Of a stretch of DNA of 54,543 nucleotides, positions 21,200-49,274 are shown in pieces (the first letter of the stretch is position 1; the number at the start of each line of letters is the position of its first letter). Under the pieces are notes generated by a model. The model was not told where the DNA came from. It made no database searches and was given only the letters and a program-made list of their open reading frames with translations. The stretch spans positions 1-54,543 of the forward strand of contig RBNI01000026.1 in the NCBI GenBank assembly GCA_003990745.1, written 5' to 3'. The translations under genes were made by a program, and so were the position numbers. Source of the stretch: Jimgerdemannia flammicorona. Its lineage: Eukaryota > Mucoromycota > Endogonomycetes > Endogonales > Endogonaceae.

Positions 21200-22113
21200 C
21201 CTCACTTTCAAGCTGAAAATGAACAACCCCTACAACAACTACCCTGACTACAAGAGTCACCCCTGCAAGAATTCAAGACAAAATGGAAATGTACCTCCCC
21301 ACATTCTATGGATATACTACTGAAGAGTCAATCCTGACCTTCATTGAAGACTTTGAACAATTTGCCACCATATGAGCCCTTGGTGTGGATGCACAATTGG
21401 CCCTTCTATCAGTCAGCCTCAGAGGACCTGCCAGAGACAAGTTTAATGCAGCTACTATTACTGATAATGGTGCAGCCAAACTTGCCAACATGAAGGCCTT
21501 TCTCAGAACAACATACTATATTGAAGAGATCAAGCAAGCTCTCAAGGATCAACTCAACACTATCTGCCAGGGACTCAGTGAAGATCCCAACTCATTCTAT
21601 ATCTGAATCTGCTACTAGATTGTCTTGGCTAGCTACAATGATGCCCTCAAGGAACAAATAGCAGATTCAACCTTTCTCAAAGAAGTTCACCCTGAAATTG
21701 CCCTAGCAATCTGGTCTACCCCAGCTGCACTGACCCTTGATCAGAAAGTGGTCTTTGTGCAGAGATATTGGACTGCCAGACACTCTACAAAACACTCAAT
21801 AGAGAAAATAACTAGTATCAATATAGAGCCATCAAAGCCAACTAGTATCATATCTGCTACAGTTGTAAACAAACAACTATCCCTACCTACCCCCAAGATA
21901 GCCAAAGCTGACCCAGTGAAAGAACTTGCCAAGCAGTTCACCAAGATGACTGCACACCTTAGTAATATTGTTAGAGAAGTCCAAAGTACCAACAGGAGAC
22001 CAGTGCAGAGATTTGCAGCTACTACAGGAGAATGTAATATTACATACTTCAGATATAGAGAAGAAGGCCACTATGCAAAGAATTGCATAACTGAAACAAG
22101 ACACAAAGCCTAA
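21200..22113 (+). pseudogene. Element 2 gag with zinc knuckle (broken)
   Basis: Two long pieces are in frame with each other apart from stops. One contains YLPTFYGYTTEESILTFI and ends near 21606. The other, at 21625-22113, starts with ASYNDALKEQIADSTFL and ends in a zinc knuckle. The capsid-like part matches the retrotransposon gag pattern (tryptophan and tyrosine spaced through helices). The knuckle reads YFRYREEGHYAKNC, where CFRCREEGHYAKNC is expected, so the first two Cys are both Tyr, each a single G-to-A change. The terminal His and Cys remain. Nucleocapsid zinc binding would be lost. Confidence 0.8.
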
Positions 22114-22541
22114 CTAAGCAATACTAGCAGAACCAGAGAACAAACTAATGCAGTAGTCATTGAGGAGATTAGTGATACTGATGATGAAGAATACTATGAG
22201 AAGCTCGAATTCTACCCTGCTACTGAAGGTACCAGAACCTGGTCCAAGCCCTATGACAAGAAGAGCAACAGCAAGCCAGTTGGAAGACCAAAAAAGACCC
22301 CAGCTGTCACTATTCAAAGTAAGACTCAACCTGAGGAGATTGATCAAGACATGGAGTTAGATGAAGCTGCCCACCAAATCATTGAAGGCACTACTCCAGT
22401 CTCAGGAGAAAGCAAAAGCAAGAAGGAACAGAAGCTGCACAAGACTAAGATCTACCAGTATGATATTACAAGGACCTCAAGGAACAGAAGGTCAATGCTA
22501 CTTTTGGACAGCTAGCTGAAGTCCCTGCCTTCAGATAGCAG

Positions 22542-23010
22542 TTGAGAGTAGGATGTGCAACTACTGCCAAGAATCAAGAGTACAAGATTGTAGAAGTTCA
22601 CAATGCACAGGAAGAATCCGAAAACTCAGGCAAAGAATCTGAGGACCAGCACAAGATATCAGCCTATACCCTATGTCAGATCGAAGACTGTATCTTTGAT
22701 ACCATCATTGATACTAGTGCTGGAGGATGCCTCATGAGCAAGAAGGCAATTGACTGCCTAGGTTGGGACATTGAAGAGTCCACCAAGATGGTCTATGTTA
22801 CAGCAGATGGTACATAAGCTATCCCCCTTGGCAAAATCTGAGAAGTCCCCATCAAGATAGGAGGAGCTACCATCCTAGTAGACGTGATTGTTACAAGCAC
22901 CACTAACTATGACATCCTTATTGGCAACTAATGGCTTTACAAGGCCAAGGCCATCATTGACCTCAATGCCCAGAAGATGCAGATCAACTATAGAGAAAGA
23001 AAGGTACGAG
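22542..23010 (+). pseudogene. Element 2 aspartic protease (broken)
   Basis: CIFDTIIDTSAGGCLMSKKA places the catalytic motif as DTSA near 22710. The flap and substrate segment MVYVTADGT follows, and TSTTNYDILIGN marks the C-terminal hydrophobic-Gly motif. Two stops fall between them: TAA where CAA is likely and TGA where CGA is likely. The TAA in GN-TAA-WL is another C-to-T change. The order matches Ty3/gypsy proteases that process Gag-Pol. Confidence 0.8.
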
Positions 23011-23094
23011 TCTCTATCAATGTCCACAAAGGGGTTCTACCAGATATGGAGAAAGGAGATAAAGAGAACACAGAGGTCTTTATGCATTTGGTGA

Positions 23095-23360
23095 ACAAGA
23101 ACAAGAACAAGACACCCAAGCTCACAGATGAGCAGTGGTACAACAAGATCATTGATGGCTATGCCCCTCAAGGAAGATGCCCCCATGGTACTAGAATGTA
23201 CTGCTCTGAATACCTGAATGACTGCTGGTCCTGTATCAGTGAAGTTAGGAAAATCTGCCAACAGAAATATGAGCAAGAAGCCGCCAAAGCAAAAAGGAAA
23301 GCTGAAGAAGATGACCATCCCCCAGAGCTTCAAGCTGGTAGTGATGATGAGGAGGAATAA
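23095..23360 (+). pseudogene. Element 2 Cys/His-rich module between protease and dUTPase
   Basis: The frame contains GRCPHGTRMYCSEYLNDCWSC then seven residues and another Cys, followed by a highly charged tail of Lys and Glu ending SDDEEE. The CPH...C...CWSC...C spacing suggests a small zinc-binding fold. It lies between protease and dUTPase, where most Ty3/gypsy elements have only a short linker. The third family in this window has a comparable Cys/His module at the same place. Function unknown. Confidence 0.55.
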
Positions 23361-23441
23361 AAACCAGATATCACTCTCAAGGTCAAGAAGTTCTACCCTG
23401 AAGCCAAGATCCCAGAATACAAGACTGAAGAAGCCATAGGA

Positions 23442-24056
23442 ATGGACCTTGCCAGCATTCAAGATACTACCCTTGAACCACAGACCACTACCCTACTTGG
23501 TACTGGAATTGGAGTCAAGCTGCTAGAGAACTATGCTGGAATTATCAAGACTAGGAGTAGTCTGGCCAAAAGCAAAATCTCAGTTAAAGGAGGAGTAATT
23601 GACTCTGATTATACTGGTGAGATCTTCCTCATAGTCAGAAATCACAACCCCACCACCCCATTTGAAGTCAAGAAGTATGACAGGATTGGCCAGATGCTGA
23701 TCTACGAAATCAAGAAACCCAAGATCACTGAAGCCATTGAACTCATCAAGACTAAGAGAGGAGAACAAGACTTTGGATCTACTGGAAGAGGAGTCTATGC
23801 TGCCACCAAGATTACCAAACTTGAGCACAAGAAAGACAAGGACCAGAACAAGTACACATATACTATTGGAGAAAACTTTCCCCTAGAAGAACAACTTCTT
23901 AAGATCCTATACCAGAATGAAGAAGTACTTGCTATAGACTTCAGGGATATCTACAATCAAGAACCCAAGTACTACCATGAAGTTGACACTAGTGATACCA
24001 AGCCTATCTACCAGAAGGTCAGACCCATACTACCTGCCTACAGAGAATGGCTGTGA
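23442..24056 (+). pseudogene. Element 2 dUTPase-like domain, leading into reverse transcriptase
   Basis: dUTPase hydrolyses dUTP to dUMP and keeps uracil out of newly made DNA. Four of the five family motifs are readable: KTRSSLAKS (motif 2), GGVIDSDYTGEI (motif 3, holding the catalytic Asp), YDRIGQMLI (motif 4) and RGEQDFGSTGRG (motif 5, the Gly-rich nucleotide lid). Motif 1 is probably the TLLGTGIGVKL stretch. This piece of 204 codons is open from 23442 to a TGA at 24055 and runs on into the reverse-transcriptase N-terminus (KPIYQKVRPILPAYREW). It is the least damaged stretch of this pol. Confidence 0.82.
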
Positions 24057-25311
24057 GCAGAACTCAAGGAAATGAAAGAAGTTGAAATCATCAAACAAGC
24101 TATCAGTCCCTGAGCTTCACCTATTGTCCTTGCTCCAAAGAAAGGAAGTAAGTCTGGAGAGTTTGCACCAAGACTCTGTATTGACTACAGGAAGCTCAAT
24201 GCCATCACAAAGAAGGATAGACAGCCCTTGCCAAATATTCAAGAAATCCTTACCACTCTTGGAAATAAAGCCAAATACTACACCACCTTGGATCTGTTCT
24301 CAGGCTTCTATTAGATTGGGCTCACTCAAGATGCCAGTCAGAAATCAGCCTTCATCACATCTGATGCCACCTATATTTACATACCTGTAAATGCCATTTG
24401 GAATGTGCAATGCCCCAGCAAGTTTTCAGCGAATAATAAACAGAGTCTTCAGCAATGAGATTGGAAAATAGCTCTTTGTCTATGTTGATGATGTAATCAT
24501 CTTCAGCAATACTGTACAGGAACATGTCAATCACATACAGCTAGCCCTCAAGAAGCTCAAGGAGCATGGCCTTTACATCAAGCCCAAGAAATGCAAGTTT
24601 ACAGCTCAAGAAATCGCCTACCTAGGACACCTCATCAACCAGACCAGAATCCATACAGACTTCATGAAGATTGAGGCTGTTGCAGCCTACCTGAGACCCA
24701 GAACAACTACAGAAGTCTATGCCTTCCTTGGACTGGCCAGCTACTATAGAAGATTCATCAAAGAATACTCCAACATTGCAGCACCTATCTACAAGCTACT
24801 GAAGAAGGAAACCAAATTTGAATCAACCAAGGAATGCTAAGAAACCTTCAATGAACTCAAGACCAGGTTGACCCAAGCACCTATCCTCAGAAGACCAGAT
24901 TGGAACCTAGAATTCATCCTGCAGACAGATGCAAGTACTATAGGACTTGGAGCAGTCCTAGCTCAGAAGAAAGATGGACATGAATATGTCATCTTCTATA
25001 CAAGCTGAGGTACCCATAGAGCAGAACAGAACTATGAGTCATGCAAGCTTGAATGCTTAGCAGTAGTTTGGGCAGTAGACAAGTTCCACTACTACCTAGC
25101 TGGGAAACACTTCACCATTCAAACAGACTATTCTGCTCTTGCCTGGTTATTCCACACTCTAAACCCTAAAGAAATATATGCCAGATGGATCTACAGGCTG
25201 CAAGAGTATGACTGTACTGTCAAGCACCACTCAGGAAGAACTAACACCAATGCTGATGCACTCTCAAGGATACTCCAAAACACTCCCATCAAGATTACTC
25301 AACATGAATAA
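24057..25311 (+). pseudogene. Element 2 reverse transcriptase and RNase H (broken)
   Basis: Readable RT motifs are [46 protein letters not shown] and an intact FVYVDDVIIFS near 24476. Later FLGLASYYRRFIKEYSNIAA and the RNase H pieces [26 protein letters not shown] and FTIQTDYSALAWLF follow, ending with NADALSR near 25265. A frameshift near 24385 separates the first half from the YVDD half. Stops such as TGA in YTS-TGA-GTHRAEQN (CGA expected) interrupt it. Confidence 0.88.
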
Positions 25312-31888: not shown

Positions 31889-33360
31889 GTGACTTTTCAG
31901 CTCACAAGAACCCACAGTCAAACTGGATACATTTGATACAATACCAATCTCTGCCACTACAGAAGAATCAGTTATTACCAGCATCTGGACAGAAAGAGAA
32001 GTAATCACATCAAGACTTGCCAACTACCTAGTATTAGAAGGATCCCAATCAGAACCAGAAGCCAGTATAGTCTGAAATCCCCAACCAGATCAACCAGATA
32101 ATACAGATGGCCCTGTTGGAGATTTTGAAGAACTTGCACAAGAACTAGAAGATCTTATTATACAAGCCTGAGATCTTACAGCCAGATACCTCATACCAGT
32201 TTCACCAATCTCACCAATAGAACCTTTACCACTAGCCCTTGCAGAATTGGAAGTAGTTTATACAAGAATATCTAGGCTCATTCTACTTCATCCAAGGTCC
32301 AGAACCCTATCCTCAAGATACTCAAGCACCCCCATTTCCAGTGATAATTCAGAAAGTGAATCCAAATCAGAATTAGGACCAGAACCAGAATCAGAAGAAA
32401 GTGATGATGAAATGGCCACCTTACTACCAACCTTTGCAAGATATCTGGAGAAAGACTCCAGAGAATTCCTTGATGGAATTGAAGGAATCACAGCCCTGAG
32501 GAATCTTTCAGATAAAAGAAAAATCACCATCTACAAGGCCTAGCTCAGAGAACCAGCCAGAGGAACAGCAAATGACCCAAATTCAGAACTAGTGAGACAG
32601 ATACAAGCAGCAGCATCTTATGAGCTAGAATATATAGCCATGGTCTACTGGCTTATTAAAAAGTATACAGAAAATGAAACCTGCCACAAGGCTCAAGAAT
32701 CCATTATAGGGATGAAGATAAATCTTAGAGAATCACCCAGAGCCTTCTTCACAAGAATCCAGAAGAGAATGTATGCTACTGGGTTCAATGCCACCAACCA
32801 GGACATCATAGGTCCAATTACCTTCATGAATGGAATTCCTCTGAACATTGCCCAGCATGTCCACACCTTAGGCATCAGAAGGTCTGAAGAGCAAGTAGAT
32901 GTAGTCCAAGGATTCTTTAATATCAGACAAGGAACTACCTGGAGTGATCATGGTAAGAAGGATAATAAGAAAGACATTCTGGTCAAAGCCCTACAAGGAC
33001 TCCTCTAAGAACAAGAGAGATCTGAAGAAAGAAGACTAGCTAAAGAAGAAAAGAAAGATAGAAGTAAAATCCAAGACCTCAGCTCCAAGTTAGACTGATT
33101 GGTTGGACAGATTGAAAAACTTATCATATGTAAAAACTGGAGTTACCAAGACAACAGAGGATACCCACCACAGAGGAGCCAAGACTATCCACTCAGAGAT
33201 AATAGGAGCTATCAGCAAAAAGAAAGAAGATATTCTGTCTGAGATAGAGCCCAAGTTCAATGCTTTTACTATGAACAATTTGGATACTATACCACTGAAT
33301 GTAACAATAAAAGAAGTGATTGAAGAGACTCAGAACCACTAAACCAAAGGAATGACACTC
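31889..33360 (+). pseudogene. Element 3 gag with zinc knuckle (broken)
   Basis: The frame opens soon after the primer site. It includes an acidic stretch (SDNSESESKSELGPEPESEE), the capsid-like part LPTFARYLEKDSREFLDGI and SPRAFFTRIQKRMYATGFNA, and a knuckle near 33255 reading CFYYEQFGYYTTEC. CFYCEQFGHYATEC-like spacing is expected, so the second Cys and the His have both become Tyr (a G-to-A and a C-to-T change). Stops at TAG codons interrupt the 5' part, and a frame change lies near 33100. Confidence 0.78.
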
Positions 33361-33879
33361 AGTACAAGAAGACTGAAGCCCATCTTATTGAAGATTTCGA
33401 GGAGGTAAGCAACAGTGAAGACTACAGTGACCTGGACCTGTACTCTATCAAGGTCACCACTCAAAAAACAGTCTATCCAGTAGAAAAGAGAAAGAGATCC
33501 ATAGGAAGACCATCCAGGAATATCAGCAGAAGAATTATCCAGGAAGAAGATGAAGAGCATGAAGAGGAGTAAGTAGAAATACCTTCCTGAACTCCCTTAC
33601 CTTTTGTTCCTGAAACAAATAAGCTGCTACCAGAAGATGAAGAAATGGAACATGAAGAATAGAAGCCTGCTGCTTCAAAGCCCAAGAAGAAGTATACCCC
33701 AAAGACTATGCCTAGAGACATCTACAATGAAGCCTGGTAGAAGATTCAAGAGGCCAAGATAGAAGTCCCTCTCCTGCAGTTCCTGCAACTAACATTAGCT
33801 GGAGTTTGAAACAAATTGCTGAGAACCACCAGGTCTAGCACTGGCTGAGTTCCAATTCCACAATAAGAACCAGTCTCCA

Positions 33880-34320
33880 TTCCTATCCAAGCTGCAGAAA
33901 GACATATCAGCACTTACTTATATGGAGACATTGGAGGACAAAAGGCAAAAATCCTCATAGACACAGGAGCAGTAGTCTGTGTTATTGTCAAACAGTTTCT
34001 AGACACCCTCCAATGGCCCATTGATGGACCATCCAACCTCAGCATCATAGTAGCAGATGGAGCCCAAACTCAACCCCTTGGAAAAGTATGAAACATTACT
34101 ATTTCCCTTGGACACATTCAGTTCTCCATCCTGAAAGCTGTTGTCACTGAAGCTGTCACCTATGATATGATCCTTGGTACTAACTAGATGAAGGAAATGA
34201 ATACAGTTATTGATATCAGTCAACAAGTACTCAAGTTTGACTACTGGGACAAGAAGTACAGAGTCAAGGTGACCAGCTATAAGCAATTAAAGAAAAAGAA
34301 GAAGGTTACTATCTAGGAAG
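33880..34320 (+). pseudogene. Element 3 aspartic protease (broken)
   Basis: GGQKAKILIDTGAVVCVIVK gives an intact DTGA catalytic motif near 33957. NLSIIVADGAQTQPLGKV is the flap region and AVTYDMILGTN the C-terminal motif. A TGA and a TAG interrupt it. Upstream (33360-33880) is a Lys/Glu-rich linker. Confidence 0.82.
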
Positions 34321-34479
34321 AATATGCCAGCAGTGAAAAATCTACTATAGAAGAGGAAGAAGAATCTGAAGATAGAAATGATCTCAGACTCAATCCCAGG
34401 ATCAATCTAGTGGATGACAGACCAGAAGACAATGTATGAGCCAAGAACACTATCCCCATTACTATTGGAGCCATTGCAG

Positions 34480-34760
34480 GAGAAATCAAAGGATACCCTA
34501 TCTGCCTTAAGAGATACAAGTGCCCTGAGCACTCCTCCAAGATCATTGGGATAAGGAATTCACCTGGCACAGCCTGCCCTGAGTGCAGAAGGAAGAAGAA
34601 GAAATGCAGACATGTTCTGGAGACACCTGCAGCTGAAGCTGCAGAAGTACAAGCAATTTGGGGCCAAGAATTATCTGAGGAAGAAGAAGTTCCTGACAAA
34701 GAAGTTCTCAAACAAGAAGCATCTGAAGAAGAAGTGGTCCCTGAACTCATTCTCTAAGAT
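34480..34760 (+). pseudogene. Element 3 Cys/His-rich module between protease and dUTPase
   Basis: The frame shows YPICLKRYKCPEH, then about 15 residues, then ACPECRRKKKKCRH. Both halves have pairs of Cys and a His, as in small zinc-binding folds. It sits at the same place in pol as the Cys-rich module of element 2, with different spacing. An acidic Glu-rich tail follows. The next 900 bases (34760-35690) continue the polyprotein in fragments that I cannot assign. Confidence 0.5.
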
Positions 34761-35694
34761 GACTCTTGCTGGATACCACCCAAAGATAATGACCCTTGGA
34801 ATATAGAAGAAGGACCCAGTACAATTCCCATTATTCCTAAGAAAGAAACTCACCAAGAAAGGGCTTTTCGGCTAGAAAGATGTCCACACCAAATGGTCTT
34901 CCACTCTCTCTGAGACTACTGCTACCAGTGCTATCTACTAGACCAATAGGAGAGATAGAGACCCCAGAGACCAGAACCCCTGATTATAGTTACACAGTCA
35001 ACTATCTTCTAAGAAGTTACCACTAAGTTGCAAAGCCAATTCAGAGGACAAGATCTCTTCACCCAAATAGAAATATACCCATTGTCCACCCTTCTCCAAA
35101 ATTATGATCAAGATGAGTACCAATTTCTGAGACAACAAGAGATCAATAGTTAGGAACATCATTTCTGAGCAATGGGATATTGTAACTATAGAAGACATCC
35201 AGACTGCTGAGACTGCAGATATCAGAAGATTTATCTCAGTCATAATGTTGCAATCTACATCTTGAAGAGAGAAGATAACCGAAGCCAGATCTGAAAAAGC
35301 CAGACCAAGAAGCCAGAAAGAAGGACTCTCAAGATCTATAATTTAGGAGAAGACATCCTAGCTCTCATCAGACATACAACTCACTAAGGATGGATAGAGG
35401 ATGCCACCAACTTTATAGAAGCCCTAGACCCTATAGAGAGAAGAGGAATTAACTACCTCCAAGATCCCTCCACTGGAGCCAGATGGCCACACCTCAACCT
35501 CAGAGCCTGGAGGCTCTCTGCTAGTAGAGCTTCAGCCCTAGAATAGTCTGAACTCAGTAAGGATATTGCTCAGTATGCCCTGCTACATCCAAAGACCAAA
35601 CCCCTGACCAAAGCTTACTCAGAAGATGTAAGATATGATCTTCACAGTCTAGAGAATGATCTATTAAGTCTGGAAAAATGTTCATGATCAGAAT

Positions 35695-35990
35695 CAGACT
35701 AGCTATGCAGCCACCTCAAGGAGTTTACATCCAACTAATCTCAAGATCTAGACTTGCCAGACAAGAAATAACTATAGAAGAAGGAATCATTGACTCAGGA
35801 TATATAGGTGAAATCAAGGTTATTCTATACAATAGTAGTATAGAATGACACTGAATCATTAGAGGACAGAAGATTGCTCAAGCAGTCTTCATGAAGGTCA
35901 AGACTCCACAATTATAAGAAGTCTCTGAACTAACTGAAGAAACTAGACAAGCCAAAGGATTTGGAAGTTCAGACAAAAAAGTATATCTCC
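35695..35990 (+). pseudogene. Element 3 dUTPase-like domain (broken)
   Basis: Motifs in order are SRSRLARQ (motif 2), EEGIIDSGYIGEIKVILYN (motif 3; the Asp of IDS is present), RGQKIAQAVF (motif 4) and RQAKGFGSS (motif 5, partly kept). Two stops occur just after motif 3 and another after motif 4. It lies between protease and reverse transcriptase, as in element 2, although the two differ greatly in sequence. The family role is to remove dUTP. Activity here is excluded by the stops. Confidence 0.8.
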
Positions 35991-36363
35991 TTCAAGTCAA
36001 CTACCTCAAGAGGAATGCTCCCCAGCAAGTGTACTGCCAACTAGTTAAACTACACAAAAATCTCATCCTGGAGCCTGGAGAACAAACCACCTTCAAAATC
36101 TTTGCACCACCCGACCCCAGAAACCTTTTCTTTGAACCCAATGAAGATATCCCATACCTGGACATAGAAGGATACACATTCTCTGACAAGATGAACTCAG
36201 TATACTCCCAAGCAATCAACCAAAGTTGGGAAACCATCATCTTGCTGAAAGGAACCATCATAAGACATCTGGTGCCTTTTCTCAGCCGAACTCATAGAGA
36301 AGTTTATGAACTAAACTTATTGGGAAACAGCAAAAGGTCCCAGAAGAAAGGAAAGACCCCTTT

Positions 36364-37793
36364 GTGATCCAGGAGACAGTTAAGCCTTCTACCAACATTG
36401 GAGTAGAATTGATGCCCCAGCAGCAGCAACAACTAGTAAAACTTCTCAATAAATATCAAGATATCTTCACTACTAATTATAGCAACCTGCCATATAATCC
36501 ATCATATCACCACAGCATCAATACAGAAAATGCAATACCCATTCGGCAGAAATCCTATAGAATACCCCATCACTTAAAAACATTTTTTAAAAGGAGTATA
36601 TTTAAGAACTCTTAGACAATGGAGTTATCTGACCCTCTACCAGCCCTTGGGCCAGCCCTATACTTATTGTACCAAAGAAAGGAGGATGGAGACTCTGTGT
36701 AGATTACAAGAAACTCAATACAGTCACCAAAAAGGATGCCTATCCTTTGCCCAGAATTGATGACCTTTTGGATCAGTTACAAGATGCCAGATACTTCAGC
36801 AGTATGGACCTTTTTGCAGAATTCCACAAAATCCCCATGGATCCTAATGATATTCAGAAGATAGCCTTCCTTACTCTAGGAAAACTGTTTGAATACCTCC
36901 AAATACCCTTTGGACTTTGCAATGCACCCCCCACCTTCCAGAGGATTATGAACTCAGTCTATGCCCCCTTGATCTACCACTGTCTGATTGTATATATGGA
37001 CAATTCCAAGATCTATTCAGCAAATTTTGAAGAATACCTACACTACCTAGAGGAATTCTTCAAGCTCATCTGCAAGAACCACCTGAGACTCAATGTAAAG
37101 AAATGCTCTTTGGGAAACAGAAACTTGAATTTCTTTGATTTTTAGTTTCAAAAGAAGAAATCCATGTAGACCTAAAGAAAACTGAGAAGATCAACAATTG
37201 GCCAGTACCCAAGACTCCAAAAGAAATACTATCATTCCTGATACTAGTATCCTACTATAGAAGGTTTATCAAGGACTTTGCCCAAATTGCCACCCCAATC
37301 CATGTCCTTCTCAAGAAAGAAGTATCTTATAAATAGACAGAATTATAAGAGAAAGCCTTCAAAGAACTCAAGAATCACATGACCACAGCACCAATCCTTG
37401 GGTGCCCCAATCTACAGAAGCCATTTATCTTATATACAGATGCTTCTAAAGATGGCCTAGGAGCAGTTCTAGCCCAAGAAGGACCTGATTAATAACACTA
37501 TATAATAGTTTATACAAGCTAAGCTACCAATCAGCAGCAGATGAACTATGATAGCACCAAACTGGAATGCCTTGCAGTCATATGGGTGGTCACCCTGTTT
37601 AAGTATTATCTCATCAGAAAAAGATTCACTCTGATCACAGACTATGTAGCTCTCAAATGGCTATTTAACTATAAGAAATCTGCTGGAATCCTAGTTTGCT
37701 GGATCCTTATCCTTCAGGATTACAAAATTACCATTATTCACAAAGTGGGAAAAGCCCACAACAATGTTGATGTACTTTCCCACCAGCCCCAAT
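36364..37793 (+). pseudogene. Element 3 reverse transcriptase and RNase H (broken)
   Basis: RT pieces are PYNPSYHHSINTENAIPIRQ, ASPILIVPKKGGWRLCVDYK, YFSSMDLFAEFHKIPMDP and QIPFGLCNAPPTFQRIMNSV. The active-site box reads VYMDNSKIYS near 36990, so the second Asp of YMDD is Asn (GAC to AAC). RNase H pieces are [28 protein letters not shown] and HKVGKAHNNVDVLSHQPQ. Stops and a frame change near 37145 separate the halves. Confidence 0.85.
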
Positions 37794-40795: not shown

Positions 40796-41910
40796 TAAAT
40801 ATCTCATCTCAATAGAATAGAGAGATGGATGATTAAAATGAGACAGAACTGGATGGATGATTGAGACAAGATAAGACAAAACAGATAATTGAGATAAGAT
40901 AGAGTATAGATAATACCTCTTCTATATTTATTACTAAATATATATCTTAGCTAGATAGATGATTGAGATAAGATAGATAATTGAGATGAGATAAATGATT
41001 GAAATAAGATAGATAATTGAGTGTAGATGGTATCTTCTCTATATTTATTAAATAAATATATATATATATATATCTTGGTTAGATGAATAATTAAGATAAG
41101 ATAGATATTTGAGATGAGACAGATAATTGAAGTAAGATAGATAATTGAAATGAGATAGATATGTAATTGAAATGAGATAGGACTAGATAGATGATTGAGA
41201 TGATAGTATAGGATAGGATGGATGATTGAGATGAGATAGATAATTGAGATAAAATAGATGATTGAGATAAAATAGATAATTGGGATAAGATGAATAATTG
41301 AGACAAGATGGATAATTGAAATAAAAGAGACAATTGAGATAAGACAGATAATTGAGATAAGATAGATAATTGAGATAAGATAGATAATTGAGACAAGATA
41401 GAGTGTGGATAATATCTTCTCTATATTTATTACTATATATATATATATCTTAGCTAGACAGATAATAGATAATTAAAATAAGATAAATAATTGAAATAAG
41501 ATAAGACTGGATAGATAATTGAGATAATGAAATGAGACAAGATGGATAATTAAGATAAGACAGACAATAGAGATGAGATAGATAATTGAGATGAGATATA
41601 TAATTGAGATAAGATAGATATGTAATTGAGATAAGATAGATAATTGAGATGAAATAGATAATTGAGATGAGACAGATGATTGAGATGAGATAGATAATTA
41701 AGATAAAATAGATAATTGAAATAAGATAAATAATTGAGACAAGATAGATAATTGAGATAAGATGAATAATTAAGATAAGATAGACAATTGAGATAAGATA
41801 GATAATTGAGACAAGATGAATAATTGAGAAAAAATAGACAATTGAGATAAGATAGAGTATGGATAGTATTTATTACTAAATATATATATTATATATATAT
41901 CTTTATTTTA
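40796..41910. repeat. 18-bp minisatellite with higher-order spacing
   Basis: Dozens of copies of an 18-bp unit close to GATAATTGAGATAAGATA. Every few hundred bases a different linker recurs (near 40905, 41018, 41402 and 41850) containing GAGTATAGATAATA, TCTCTATATTTATTA and a TATATA run. The linkers divide the array into higher-order blocks. A Leu/Ser/Gln-repeat frame on the minus strand is an artefact of the repeat. Confidence 0.9.
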
Positions 41911-43101: not shown

Positions 43102-46100
43102 TCATTTTCTCTGATATACTACCTTTTTCCTATATTCGGAAGGATGAGCATTCCCTGCTAATGACTCTGATGCAGATGGAATGTTCAAATTTTGCTGCAT
43201 CGTACCAGGCAACATATCCTCCTCTGTTGAGCGTCGTTCGGTTGCTGCCCTCGAAGAGACGAATTGATCACGCAGTTGGACAGACGGCTTGTGACCGGCC
43301 ACTGATGTTGACAAAAACATCTCAACTCGTCTATTGGAATTCTGTCGTGCATCTTCCAGAATTGCAGCCTCCCTTGTCAAAGGTCCCAACACTAATGAAG
43401 ATATATCAACTAGACCATCCAAATTCTGGCGCATACTGTCTGGAATCGTATTCTCTGTGATGCGCGGAATGTCCACTGGGGCCACAGAGACGCCATGAGC
43501 AGAGTGCAGGAGGAGTTGCTCGTGTACCGATTTTAGGATGCTGACGATCTCTTCCATCTCAGGTCGCTCCTTCGGCTGCGCTGATCCACAACATCGGTAC
43601 AAATTTTGATATTCAGGGCTGGGACACAGTGGCAGGGGCTTCAAACGGTTAGGGTTAACTGCTCTCTCATTGCTGCCCGGAAATTCGGACGACGCAATCT
43701 CCCAACACAAGACACCAAAGCCAAAAATGTCGTGCAAGTAGTTGTATGGCGGGGGTGGCTTCTTCCAGAGTTCAGGAGCGATGTATGCAAGTCGGCCGTA
43801 GATCTTGATTCGGAATTCTGGGCGTTGCGCCTCCTCGAAAGTTCGGCTCAGCCCAAAGTCCGTGAGAAGAGCCGACCCATCCTGTACAAAAATATAATTG
43901 ACAATGAGCATACGTCCTCAGCCAATGTAAATATAAGGAATTCGAGATGTACTTACATCGTCTATAAGAATGTTGCCACTATGCATGTCGCAATGAATTA
44001 TATGGTGTTGGTGAAGGAATTGCAACCCTTGTGCAATATCCAACGCGATCTTGACCTTTTCAGCCCAAGGCATACTAATAAACGCCTTGTTGTAATGAAT
44101 ATATTTCTGAAGACACGATTGGGCCCTGTGCATGACAATATAGTTCAAGGTGACATCTCTATAAAGAAATAGAAAGCGAATATATATGAGCATATCACAA
44201 ATATTTTTCATATTTTCAATATTAGAATTTTAATGATTTGAAATTCATCAAGACATACCTTGTAATACCATAGAATCGGACAATATTCGGATGACCTGTC
44301 ACCATCTTTAGAATTCGCACTTCTTGTATTATATCTGCTGCATGCTTCAGTTGCGATTTGACAGCTACTTCTACTTTTATATCTTTTTTGATGCTCAAAA
44401 CACCCATATGGATATCTGCAAACCCACCCCTGCAAGCATTCTTTTGAGTAAAGAACAGATTTTCAAAAGCAATAATGTCTAACCCCAATTGCTCCAGCTC
44501 TTTGTTGATATCAATTCCTGTCATATGTTGCAAAAGATTTATTGAATAACCTATGTGAACCAACTGCAGAAATTAAATAATATAATAAATTCAACGCACG
44601 AACCTATTTTTCTTTGGTCTTCTAGGCCTAGCCAGACGCTCTCCAATAGTTCCCAGTTGAAGTCACGATCATCTTCGGCGGACTTCAGGTCTCGCAACCT
44701 GGACACCACGGTATCTATGGGAGGCCAAACAAGTATGTCGGTATCCCAACATACCTCATAGAGCCGAATGTAATCAAGCGGGACATTTTTCATCGGTAAT
44801 ACAGTCTCTGTGTCCATTCCTGGTCGGAGGCCGTCCATGATATTATCGAGGAGGTCTGGATTGTAGTTATCCTCAAATGCACGCTTCTCATGTAGAATTT
44901 CCCACAACAGAATTCCAAGGCTGTAAATATCGCTCTTCTCGAAATCTACTTGCACTCCATCATAATAGTCCAGCTGTTCCCGGATGCGAGCGTTTGTCGT
45001 TGAGCAGGTGAGTCCGCTCAGACTGAAGCCAGTCAGTGCCACCGAGCCATCTTTGCGGACTAGAACATTCTCGCAATCCAACCCTAATAAAATATAATAT
45101 TTTGTCACTAACATATAAGGGAACAAGAACTACTCTATACATTCAGAGCATAAATGGAAAAATGTAAATACCTCGATGTACAATTCCTTTGGCATGCATA
45201 TGCTGTAATCCACATGCCAAACCATATGCCATTTTTATTCTCGTTGGCCATGGTAACGAAATATTTTTTTTTACATCCCAAAAGTCATGCATATTTCCCC
45301 TCTCTGCATACTCCAGAATAATTTCGTATTGCTTTGTTTCAGGGTTCCTATAAAGAATAATTAAAATGTTAATCATCAATATCAACAATATACCTAATTC
45401 TAAAATGACAATAAGATGACTTACTTTGTAATACCATAAAATCGGATAATGTGATCATGCTCTCCCAATGTTATAAAAACTTGAACTTCATGAACCATGT
45501 CGCTCAAATCCAAAAAATCCTTAACAGCAACAAATGGTGATTCATGTCCTTTCCAACTAGCTCTGTATACTGTCCCATAGTTACCACGGCCAATTATACC
45601 AACTTTTACAAGATCTTCATAGGGTATTTCATGAATGGTCTCTGTGGTCAAAGCATTGACAATCCAGACATGTGGCTCAGCTTCATTGGATTGAATCTGT
45701 GGTTCTGATTCTTCCATAATGATGCTGCTATATGCGAGTTTTGCGGATTCCGAGATATTTGTTGAAGTTAGGCCGACCTTCCGCTGTTGATTGTTGCTGC
45801 CTGTCGCGTTGTCATCGTCTATAGCAGGCAGAGGACGTTTAGGAATATATCGGTGGGCGAACCAGTGAGTCCTGGCTGCATCTGGTTTGTCAGTGCGGTC
45901 TTTTTTCAGATTTCGTTCGAGCTGTTGTTTCAACCTCTGGCGTACTGCAGCTAATTCCTGGCTGGTTTGCCCAACTTTATAGATATGCACCCAGAAGATT
46001 GAAAAGGTTCAGAATTAAAAATGTTTAGCTTAATTTTATAAGATAGCAGTACTTGGAAACAAATTTTAACAAATATAAAATCTGTGGCTCAAACTATTGG

Positions 46101-48252
46101 CAACTGTTTCATAATTTTGACATACCATTGATGTTAGATTTAAGTAATGTCTCATTCCGCTTCAGAGCCATATTTATGGCATTTATCATCTCATCGTCGA
46201 TGTTGACTTCTAAAGATGAACAGCGAATAGGTGAACAAACATGCACAGGTCAGCTGGACCAAATCATCCACATTCAACCAGTCACACACTGATTTCCGAC
46301 ATACCTCCGAGATTCAGCTGGGTAAGGGTCGTGTTCTGCTTCATAGACTCGGCCAGAACACGGGCACCCTCAGCGCCGATTTCGTTATCTATGAATACGC
46401 AATAGGTTGGCTGGATTGAATCACCCACATTCAAACAGTTACACACTGATTTCCGACATACCTCGGAGATTCAGTTGAGTAAGGGTCGTGTTCTGCTTTA
46501 GAGACTCGGCCAGAGCACGGGCACCCTCAGCGTTGATTTCGTTATCTATCATACGCACAGGTCAGCTGGATGGAATCATTGACATCCAAACTGCCACACA
46601 CTGATTACTGACATACCTCCGAGATTCAGCTGGGTAAGGGTCGTATTCTGTTGCAGAGACTCGGCCAGAGCACGGCCACCCTCAGCGCCGATTTCGTTAT
46701 CTATGAATACGCACAGGTCAGCTGGATCGAATCACCGACATTCTAACAGCCACACACTGATTTCCGACATACATTCCAAATTCAACTGGGTAAGGGTCGT
46801 GTTCTGCTTCAGAGACTCGGCCAGAGCACGGGCACCCTCAGCGCCAATTTCGTTATCTATGAATACGCACAGGTCAGCTGGATCGAATCACCCACATTCA
46901 AACAGCCACACACAGATCTCCGACATACTTTCGAGATTCAGCTGGGTAAGGGTCATGTTCAGCTTCAGGGACTCAGCCAAAGCACGGGCACCCTCAGCGC
47001 CGATTTCGTTATCTATGAATACGCACAGGTCAGCTGGATCGGATCACCCACATTCAAACAGTCCCACACTGATTTCCGACATACATTCGAGATTGAGCTG
47101 GGTAAGGGTCGCGTTCTGCTTCAGAGACTCGGCCAAAGCACGGGCGCCCTCAGCGCCGATTTCGTTATCTATGAATACGCATAGGTCAGCTGGATCGAAT
47201 CACCCACATTCAAAAAGCCACACACTGATTTCCGACATACATTCGAGATTCAGCTGGGTAAGGGACGTGTTCTGCTTCAGAGACTCGGCCAGAGCACGGG
47301 CACCCTCAGCGCCGATTTTGTTATCTATGAATACACAGGTCAGCTGGATCGAATCACCCACATTCAAACAGTCACACACTGATTTCCGACATACTGTAGA
47401 GATTCAACTGGGTAAGGGTCGTGTTCTGCTTCAGAGACTCGGCCAGAGTACGGGCACCCTCATCTTTAATGTTATTCGCTGAAAAATGCATAAATACGCA
47501 CGGTCAGCTGGATAGAATCACCTACATTCAAAAGTCACACGCTGATTTCCTACGTACATCTGAGATTCAGCTGGGTAAGGGTCGTGTTATGCTTCAGAGG
47601 CTCGGCCAGAGCACGGGCACCCTCAGCGCCGATAAAGTTATCTAAATGAATACGAAGTCAGCTGGATCGAATCACCAACATTCAAATAGTCACATACTGA
47701 TTTCCGACATACAGGAGATATTCAACTGAGTAAGGGTCGTGTTCTGCTTCAGAGACTCGGCCAGAGCACGGGCACCCTCATCGCCGATGCTATTCCCTGA
47801 AAAATGCACAAATACGCACAGGTCAGCTGGATCGAATCACCCACATTCAAACAGTCATACACTGACTTCCGACATACTTTCGAGATTCAGCTGGGTAAGG
47901 GTCGTGTTCTGCTTCAGAGATTCGGCCAGAACACGGGCACCCTCATCGCCGATGCCATTTGCTGAAAAATGTATATACAAATACGCACAGGTCAGCTAGA
48001 TCGATTCACCAACATTCAACTGATTTCCGACATACATTCGAGATCCAGCTGGGTAAGGGTGGTGTTCTGCTTCAGAGACTCCGCCAGCGCGAGTACACCC
48101 TCAGCGTTAATATCTGAAGTTGAACAGATGGATGAGGCAAATACGCACAGATTGTCAGTTGGAACTCGTCAGACAGCTACAATCAACAGTTCACTCTGTT
48201 CAAACATACCAATGAGATTCAGCGTAGTCTGGGTCGTGAGCAGTGTTGGCAT
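43102..48252 (-). CDS. LRR-pseudokinase-kinase receptor-like protein (20 exons)
   Basis: Hand splicing gives 20 exons and an uninterrupted 1202-residue protein, with phases agreeing at every junction. Exons (plus-strand positions): 48210-48252, 48036-48113, then LRR exons 47878-47961, 47713-47796, 47558-47641, 47395-47478, 47241-47324, 47085-47168, 46929-47012, 46773-46856, 46617-46700, 46462-46545, 46305-46388 and 46126-46209. The kinase part is 45425-45974, 45172-45347, 44604-45083, 44259-44550, 43957-44158 and 43102-43881. Residues 15-376 are leucine-rich repeats of ribonuclease-inhibitor/NLRC type, with core IGAEGARALAESLKQNTT. About 377-490 is a charged linker. About 495-745 is a pseudokinase: glycine loop IGRGNYGTVY at 504 and Lys528 of VAVK are kept, but HRD is HRG (617-619) and DFG is GFS (637-639). 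About 800-1067 is a kinase with VAVK Lys843, HCD (931-933), Asn938, DFG (951-953) and APE (978-980). No signal peptide or membrane segment is obvious, so a cytosolic sensor is inferred. Confidence 0.85.
43510..44475 (-). other. Active-type kinase-coding segment of the receptor-like gene
   Basis: The glycine loop is unusual (ACRGGFADIHMG), of the GGFADV style seen in many fungal TKL-like kinases. The Lys, the catalytic Asp (in HCDMHSGN), DFG and APE are present, so activity is plausible. The HRD Arg is Cys. The sequence TDFGLSRTFEE and the activation segment end in RLAYIAPELW. About 135 residues of low-complexity tail follow to the stop at 43102. Confidence 0.8.
44604..45615 (-). other. Pseudokinase-coding segment of the receptor-like gene
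   Basis: Spans three exons. It retains the glycine loop, the VAVK lysine, a candidate helix-C Glu (539) and the DIYSLGILLWEI segment. The catalytic-loop Asp is Gly619, whose codon is split across an exon junction, so the base at that splice site matters. The metal-binding DFG reads GFS, and no APE motif is present. Predicted to bind nucleotide weakly or not at all and to act as a regulatory domain. Confidence 0.8.
46126..48113 (-). repeat. Tandem one-exon-per-LRR array
   Basis: Thirteen tandem exons. The first is 78 nt, and the next twelve are each exactly 84 nt, encoding 28 residues from one Leu-rich repeat to the next. All break after the first base of a codon. The introns between LRR exons are mostly 70-81 nt (the last is 95), have GTATGT-type donors and CATAG or TTCAG acceptors, and are themselves similar to one another (for example GTATGTCGGAAATCAGTGTG). 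The duplicated unit is therefore exon plus intron, about 156 bp. The last repeat (46126-46209) is the most diverged. Confidence 0.9.
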
Positions 48253-48426
48253 GTTTGTTTAAGTGTTAAGAGCAACGTGTCAAATGGTCAAATGTCGGTT
48301 AATAAAACTTTATTCCCAACCCTAACCCTGGGCATCCGATAATCGATCTAACAATATACGCTTTGTAAGGTATCTTAAACACTGCTTTCTATCATCCATA
48401 ACCCCCACTCAATATAAGACAACTGC
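48253..48426. promoter_or_regulatory. Divergent intergenic region upstream of the kinase gene
   Basis: About 170 bp separate the kinase ATG from the first plus-strand reading frame to the right, so any promoter for the kinase gene must lie here or beyond. I see no clear TATA box in the expected place. Assigned by position only. Confidence 0.3.
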
Positions 48427-48809
48427 ATGACAAACACCCTTCCTGTTCACCTCAGGCACCATCTTTGGTCTGTACTCTCAAGTACGTCCCACTCGCCCCG
48501 CCTCCTCCGCCATCAACCACTTCCCACCGGAGGTCTTCGAGAACATTATCCTGCACATTGCCGCAACGTCACGACTTCATCTCCTTCATCCTCACGAGTT
48601 ATCCCAGCACAAACGTGGCCACGGCCTCCTACCTACGAGAGCGGTGGTTCAAAGCGCATTACGATGACGACTCGACCTCGGGTGCTGATGGAATGCTAGG
48701 GCGTCGGGGTTGGGGGGTGGGTACTTACACGATCTGTCACTTGTTGCTGATAAGGTCATTGTTCTCGCCATGCTTGCGCCCTCGTATCGACACGAGACCG
48801 TTTTGGTAG
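48427..48809 (+). pseudogene. F-box-like remnant with frameshift
   Basis: One frame reads SAINHFPPEVFENIILHIAAT, which resembles an F-box start (P-x-E-x-x-x-x-I-L). A second frame then continues HDFISFILTSYPSTNVATAS and YLRERWFKAHYDDDST. The two join only if about one base change in length is allowed near 48568. Composition is CpG-normal, as in the kinase gene. The 3' part (48810-49270) is open only in short pieces and may hold introns. F-box proteins recruit targets for ubiquitination, but this assignment rests on one short stretch. Confidence 0.35.
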
Positions 48810-49274
48810 TGAGTGGGCTGTCAGAACTCGTCGTACCGAGGTAAGCGAGGATCGTGTTTTGTCATAGGCGCAATAACCCAACGGGTCATCGTTGGGCGCG
48901 TGTGTTGACTTGATCGTGTCCACGGAGATGGATGCCGGGTGAAAAGAAAATAGGGGATTAAGATATCGCGTGAGGACTGTGTTCCTATATTTGAGGCTAT
49001 ACGATAACTCGACAGATGTTTTCTTCGCACTGGACCCGGAATATCGCGTCATCACTGGCCGACACCGCCTCCTTGACTTTTCCCTGCCATCTCTGCCTCT
49101 GAACTGACTCCCTTCTCCCCTTCAACCCCTCCCTCATCGCCACCAGCCCCCCTTCCTAGCCACACCTCCTTCCGCATGGTCACCACAACGCGTTGGCGGA
49201 GTTGGCAATCGACGAACGTGAGGAGCTATGCACCGGTCAGCTAAACAAGCATCTCATGCGGCAACAACCTTCAT

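Follow-up and report, generated by a model that had tools for sequence, protein, structure and literature searches.

The window, that is, the whole stretch of DNA analysed here, comprises 54,543 nucleotides (nt) of contig RBNI01000026.1 from the fungus Jimgerdemannia flammicorona. On its minus strand, from 48252 to 43102, lies a gene coding for leucine-rich repeats (LRRs), a linker, a pseudokinase and a kinase in a single protein. When the model was rebuilt from the sequence, 20 exons, 19 GT-AG introns and a single terminal stop were obtained, the product having 1191 residues, or 1202 if an alternative acceptor of intron 17 is used. Exon 1 with the start codon (48210-48252; MPTLLTT...) is followed by the LRR array of exons 2-13 (46305-48113), in which each exon encodes one 28-residue repeat of the ribonuclease-inhibitor (RI) type, and by exon 14 (46126-46209), a divergent capping repeat, the protein thus opening with 13 RI-type LRR exons. 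Exon 2 measures 78 nt and exons 3-14 exactly 84 nt each, while introns 1-14 are all of phase 1. A 96-nt stretch formed by an exon and the start of its intron occurs 12 times at a spacing of 154-165 nt, and 11 of these copies share 85-94% identity with the one taken as reference. The gene is real, and the repetition of this unit is beyond chance. Searches of the window with Rfam (gathering score) and for tRNA genes gave no matches.

Downstream of the array, intron 14 (45975-46125) forms the LRR-to-kinase junction. Exon 15 (45425-45974) contains the linker (residues 377-491) and the start of the pseudokinase N-lobe, with a GRGNYG loop and a VAVK lysine, exon 16 (45172-45347) extends the pseudokinase as far as the HR of its HRG loop, and exon 17 (44604-45083) provides its C-lobe, with the remainder of HRGLDCEN and LTGFSLS. 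The second kinase domain (kinase 2) begins in exon 18 (44259-44517) with a degenerate RGGFADIH loop, a VAVK lysine and a QEV glutamate, has its catalytic loop, HCDMHSGN, in exon 19 (43957-44158), and is completed in exon 20 (43102-43881) by DFG, APE, the remaining C-lobe, a tail that varies between copies and the stop codon. The order LRR, pseudokinase without the catalytic Asp or DFG, then kinase with both, which a sequence-only reading of this DNA had proposed, is confirmed by these motifs: HRG and TGF (at the DFG position) in the first domain, HCD, DFG and APE in the second, APE being found only there. Pfam assigns 11 stretches to LRR_6 and recognizes two PK_Tyr_Ser-Thr domains, each significant alone (1.4e-30 and 8.9e-39); the other matches, weak ones to ABC1 and HOASN, lie inside the LRR or kinase regions.

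The same reading had called the LRRs NLRC-type. The repeat is indeed of the 28-residue RI type, and the nearest solved LRRs by sequence are RI-like, including structures of RI, NLRP and NLRX1 as well as entry 5irm, which we take to be NOD2. The part of the label that implies an NLR did not hold: no NACHT or NB-ARC match was found by Pfam in the protein, and exon 1 runs straight into the first repeat in all five readable copies of the gene. There was likewise no Pfam match to FERM or SH2 in the protein, no transmembrane helix by hydropathy (the maximum over 19 residues, 1.27, is in the C-terminal tail) and no signal peptide by eye. Among kinases of known structure, the closest in sequence are MAP3K/TKL and tyrosine kinases. 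MAP3K/TKL entries head the list for the pseudokinase, and the list for kinase 2 starts with an EGFR chain, followed by 7t6f ('Tyrosine-protein kinase'), presumably a JAK, which matches in two stretches.

The suspicion that the gene might be one of a family was borne out when the genome (134.8 Mb, 7754 contigs) was compared with the pseudokinase, LRR and kinase halves as queries. Five further loci with the same order were found: C427, C217, C1182, C52 and, decayed, C138. Spliced alignments show one stop and one frameshift in C52 and several, with heavy decay, in C138; together with an LRR-exon finder they give 13 LRR exons in the window gene and 17, 8, 7, 5 and 17 in the others. Partial family matches were found on C994, C51, C622, C4239, C3457, C6656, C7342, C550 and C1572. 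In all five readable copies the start exon with the surroundings of its ATG, the LRR-to-kinase junction and the degenerate motifs are kept, and exon 14 is the last LRR exon. This conservation around the start exon indicates that the protein begins with the repeats. One repeat of C427 and one of C217 lack the AG at the 84-nt edge, and an AG 15 or 12 nt upstream, respectively, is used in frame; these longer units were entered as 84 nt in the divergence and identity counts. C427 also stops about 80 residues sooner within the last exon.

The copies also corrected the gene model. The 20 exons splice as had been claimed, except that the acceptor of intron 17, placed at 44550 in the 1202-residue version, is put by the paralogs at 44517, which lengthens the intron from 53 nt (ending at 44551) to 86 nt (44518-44603; GTTCGT...TGACAG). 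The acceptors matching 44550 and 44517 are 4 bases further apart in C1182. In C217 the first-site AG is shifted by one base downstream and no longer agrees in phase with the conserved donor. If splicing uses the second acceptor instead, the window gene and C427, C217 and C1182 each have an uninterrupted frame from start codon to stop codon, the last three coding for 1226, 1048 and 1026 residues. The 1191-residue protein is favoured because C217 and C1182 are then read in frame and because, in the copy comparison, the longer exon 18 is least alike over its first residues.

A diverged relative on C4734 (L003/L032, 7400-5350, minus strand) has a pseudokinase (HDN, SGF) followed by a kinase (HCD, DFG), with 40% identity in kinase 2 and a different N-terminal part; no LRR array was found within the 4.7 kb examined. 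The pseudokinase-kinase pair may therefore be older than its fusion to the LRRs, or may have survived their loss. Relatives of exon 17 were also sought in viral and prokaryote contigs, where none was confirmed. A search of phage records for near matches gave none.

That the LRR part and both kinase domains belong to one gene, as had been proposed, depends on intron 14 (151 nt, GTATGT...AAAG, phase 1). Two adjacent genes might instead be present, one for an LRR protein that ends just past exon 14, the other for a tandem-kinase protein that starts from an internal Met of exon 15. When the donor is read through, the LRR frame stops five codons on, the Met is at its position in all five readable copies, and the AAAG acceptor is weak. 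Yet the donor and the acceptor are at the same positions in all five, and the 86 codons before the Met, directly behind the shared acceptor, are open in every copy, while every other frame has 2-5 stops. In nine of the ten copy pairs intron 14 diverges by 0.22-0.31 with 40-69 gapped columns, against 0.12-0.17 and 0-9 gapped columns, all in multiples of three, for the exon part up to the Met; the tenth and youngest pair gives 0.08 against 0.04. The ratio of nonsynonymous to synonymous rates (dN/dS) of this part is 0.54 and rises modestly, to 0.85 and 0.65, when the frame is shifted. With the junction and the LRR-to-kinase order retained at five loci, we consider two genes very improbable; the copy comparison speaks against separate LRR and kinase transcripts and against an unspliced 45975-46125, and a single gene is upheld.

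Over 35 repeats of the family, positions 2 and 27 have an entropy of 2.6 bits, every other exon codon remaining below 1.9; residue 28, whose codon is split by the intron, has a likewise high proportion of nonsynonymous differences (pN), 0.65. The three sites x27, x28 and x2 (...LTQLNL-x-x-N-x-IG...) are adjacent in the protein although an intron separates them in the gene, and by the LRR consensus they presumably occupy the strand end and the loop lining the binding face. Rates were obtained by a counting method rather than with a codon model. In 40 units, pN is 0.62 at the three codons and 0.072 at 24 of the remaining ones, position 5 being excluded, with an overall proportion of synonymous differences (pS) of 0.20, so that the pN/pS ratio of the three codons is 3.1 (bootstrap 2.5-3.8). 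In the 35 units set against introns, pN at these codons is 0.634, versus 0.139 for the introns of the same units (ratio 4.6, bootstrap 3.8-5.5) and a pS of 0.201. The 61 closest unit pairs give 0.477 versus 0.052 for introns. A few sites per repeat evolve faster than neutral.

Because the three sites had been picked from the family data, other loci were tested as well. Across 180 repeats of 15 loci outside the family, the same three positions, plus 5 and 23, are the most varied, and at 14 of the 15 loci pN of the three codons is above the introns (ratio 1.7-5.7; relative to pS, 1.01-6.67). A first run of 11 loci, leaving out the four with the fewest repeats, L066 with its nine excepted, had all 11 exceeding their introns, and three of the remaining four did so too; L060 and L066 are both on contig C4477.

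An alternative account would make the LRR array a structural scaffold, the three residues varying just because nothing constrains them or because the exon end where they sit is prone to mutation. Exposed positions are variable in most LRR proteins, the variable codons border an intron, and the synonymous rate is raised at the same codons. Unconstrained sites, nevertheless, cannot exceed introns and synonymous sites in nonsynonymous change, the remaining repeat positions change little (pN 0.074), and in the four units of C1182 the three codons have a pN of 0.5 against introns differing by 2%, a ratio of 24. We therefore think that a mere scaffold is rather unlikely. Several observations do weigh against the sensor reading. 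The raised pS at the three codons (0.526, from few sites) means that a local mutational cause may contribute to their speed, and the 3' edges of the introns are variable too in an ungapped comparison (0.568, with two acceptor types mixed). At one outside locus, L053, with two units, none of the three codons has changed nonsynonymously. Mean repeat identity within arrays is 72-88%, and the mark used for fungal NLR repeats, more than 85% identity across at least 100 residues, is exceeded as regards identity in two of five arrays; for the window array it is 81%, or 88% without the three variable sites. Finally, introns diverge by 0.151 within arrays versus 0.135 between them; membership in one array brings no greater likeness, which gives no support for array-specific concerted evolution.

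The pseudokinase has a dN/dS of 0.16-0.28 in all ten pairs over 287 codons, and GRGNYG, VAVK, HRGLDCENVL and LTGFSLSGL are kept in all five readable copies, APE occurring in none. For the linker, nine pairs give 0.37-0.68 and the youngest, C1182-C52, 1.87 from few changes. The kinase 2 exons range from 0.06 to 0.46, without the C1182-C52 pair (0.58 and 1.19, the latter, for exon 19, resting on few changes) and without the frameshifted exon 20 of C52, a copy that was kept in the counts and whose exon-20 values (0.43-0.85) are meaningless through the frameshift. The activity of kinase 2 is uncertain because its glycine loop is degenerate (CRGGFA, the first and third glycines missing by alignment), which also counts against a working kinase output. 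Taken with HCD in place of HRD, this could mean that both domains are non-catalytic and that the protein acts as a scaffold or switch, as perhaps some pseudokinases and plant tandem kinases do. We find this improbable, given that the VAVK lysine, the alpha-C glutamate, the catalytic Asp, the Asn, DFG and APE of kinase 2 are all retained in the five readable copies and that selection on it is strong.

Several known systems resemble parts of this protein. According to the excerpts used of PMC2939053, a survey of 49 fungi found LRR receptors to be nearly absent, those of immune type being reported as lacking, and listed nine fungal LRR-plus-kinase genes, four of Batrachochytrium dendrobatidis and five intron-less, bacterial-like ones of ascomycetes. 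Like the present gene, these combine LRRs and a kinase in one protein without a transmembrane region; the ascomycete genes differ in being intron-less and near to bacterial proteins, and the excerpts do not mention a pseudokinase-kinase pair (the chytrid genes lie outside this comparison). Fungal NLRs, in the parts consulted of PMC4986451, have WD, ANK or TPR repeats and no LRRs. Those whose repeats are highly conserved, such as HET-E and HET-D (PMC4986451, PMC12222747, in excerpt), share with our protein an intracellular location, similar repeats, a repeat number that varies between copies and few fast positions on the predicted binding face; here, however, the sensor is made of LRRs, is N-terminal and has one exon per repeat, there is no NACHT or NB-ARC, and the output is a pseudokinase and a kinase.

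Animal JAK proteins have the same succession of a pseudokinase directly followed by a kinase, the former keeping the lysine and lacking the catalytic Asp and the DFG Asp. They differ in that here there is no FERM or SH2, LRRs stand in front, the pseudokinase list is headed by MAP3K/TKL, and no association with a membrane receptor is apparent as far as known. Plant and oomycete LRR receptor-like kinases also place an LRR sensor upstream of a kinase, whereas our protein has neither transmembrane helix nor signal peptide, and has RI-type LRRs and two kinase domains. The protein is no member of the NLR, JAK or LRR-receptor-kinase family, since a defining domain of each is missing. Several plant tandem kinase proteins have the order kinase then pseudokinase, and we know of no plant tandem kinase-pseudokinase protein with a long LRR array. 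Proteins of this kind, such as WTK1/Yr15 (PMC6170490, in excerpt), share with the present case two kinase domains, one of them degenerate, and the status of a suspected recognition protein. That the exact order is not known from fungi had been suggested from the sequence, and a search of titles and abstract starts in the open-licence literature agrees, although absence cannot be proved thereby: no fungal LRR-pseudokinase-kinase protein was found, and among the papers listed the subjects were plant resistance kinases, pseudokinases, pseudoenzymes and a plant NLR.

We think that the gene probably encodes a cytosolic LRR sensor under diversifying selection with a JAK-like pseudokinase-kinase output, its array evolving in the manner of the repeat domains of fungal NLRs. 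The N-terminal LRR solenoid would contact a variable partner with residues x27, x28 and x2 of each repeat, and the linker would relay binding to the pseudokinase, which appears to have retained a nucleotide-binding loop and lysine and to have lost the catalytic machinery. By analogy with JH2 acting on JH1 in JAK, the pseudokinase might then restrain or release the adjoining TKL-like kinase. The array, for its part, would expand, contract and be re-assorted by whole exons; because these are mostly 84 nt between phase-1 introns, any repeat number stays in frame, and array length can change free of frame cost. A multi-copy fungal family that combines a fast LRR array with a selected pseudokinase and a kinase is, in our opinion, a testable candidate for non-self recognition, and it adds a further lineage with a pseudokinase placed before a kinase.

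LRRs and kinases are also associated elsewhere in this genome. Among the matches listed, 68 contigs have LRRs; by hand count, these comprise 4 of this family, 30 that have kinase matches as well and 34 with no kinase match among those listed. On those at least 30 contigs, kinase and LRR share a strand in all 30 cases and lie within 3 kb of each other in 29, with the order (positions copied by hand) kinase-LRR in 18, LRR-kinase in 9 and kinase-LRR-kinase in 3; such matches on one contig show proximity and do not imply that each pair is one gene. Loci L010, L055, L059-L061 and L066 hold parts of this set, which far exceeds the family described here in size. With a large LRR-kinase set, arrays of one exon per repeat, hypervariable contact residues and a JAK-like switch in the LRR-pseudokinase-kinase branch, we may be dealing with an LRR-based intracellular recognition system that takes the place of the NLRs of other fungi, a tentative idea that we hold to be possible, short of probable. 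If true, the rule that fungi are without LRR immune-type receptors would break.

Some observations on related loci and on the surroundings of the gene can be added. On C826, the kinase of the kinase-then-LRR locus L010 (2582-3547) has HED and DVG replacing HRD and DFG, and the kinase frame extends across GTATGTCG, by eye of the type that opens LRR introns. Loci L042-L052 except L045 (C5367, C2995, C1490) have LRR frames without a stop that reach 2403 residues; their repeats are related, though further diverged, with 37-49% identity. Upstream of the gene, a stretch at 48430-48900 (plus strand) is conserved at four of the five copies, and its opposite strand is F-box-like by eye (INHFPPEVFENIILHIA), although one fragment of it tested with Pfam gave no match; this suggests a divergent neighbour gene duplicated together with the kinase gene. 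Telomere-like TTAGGG repeats (CCAGGGTTAGGGTTGG) are located at about 48315-48332, upstream of the start, in four of the five copies.

A transposon origin of the gene was rejected, no reverse transcriptase, integrase or long terminal repeat having been noticed inside 43102-48252, where no dedicated element search was run. Elsewhere in the window, retroelement-type reading frames were seen by eye on the plus strand at 21600-24060 and 32540-37150; within them, 23361-24056 looks like a dUTPase fused to part of a polyprotein and 36633-37145 like a reverse transcriptase. A long low-complexity tract at 40951-41888 has minus-strand open frames of Ile/Ser/Leu repeats. In the genome, contig C5230 carries the beta part of a fungal type-I fatty-acid synthase, its best match scoring 617 bits against what we take to be a fungal-type beta chain versus 171 against the presumed bacterial kind of type-I synthase. 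Together with the introns mentioned below, this synthase makes a fungal host likely, and it led to the rejection of Glomeromycotina, a group that has lost the enzyme (a subject touched on in PMC12574304). The AML2 primer site had no match at up to 2 mismatches, in an assembly that may lack rDNA; PACRG, a mark of flagellated fungi, had no match either, in a search with no positive control, and is uninformative. Repeat content hinted tentatively at Endogonales (PMC10386755). Short GT-AG introns with CTGAC-like branch sites were also recognized by eye.

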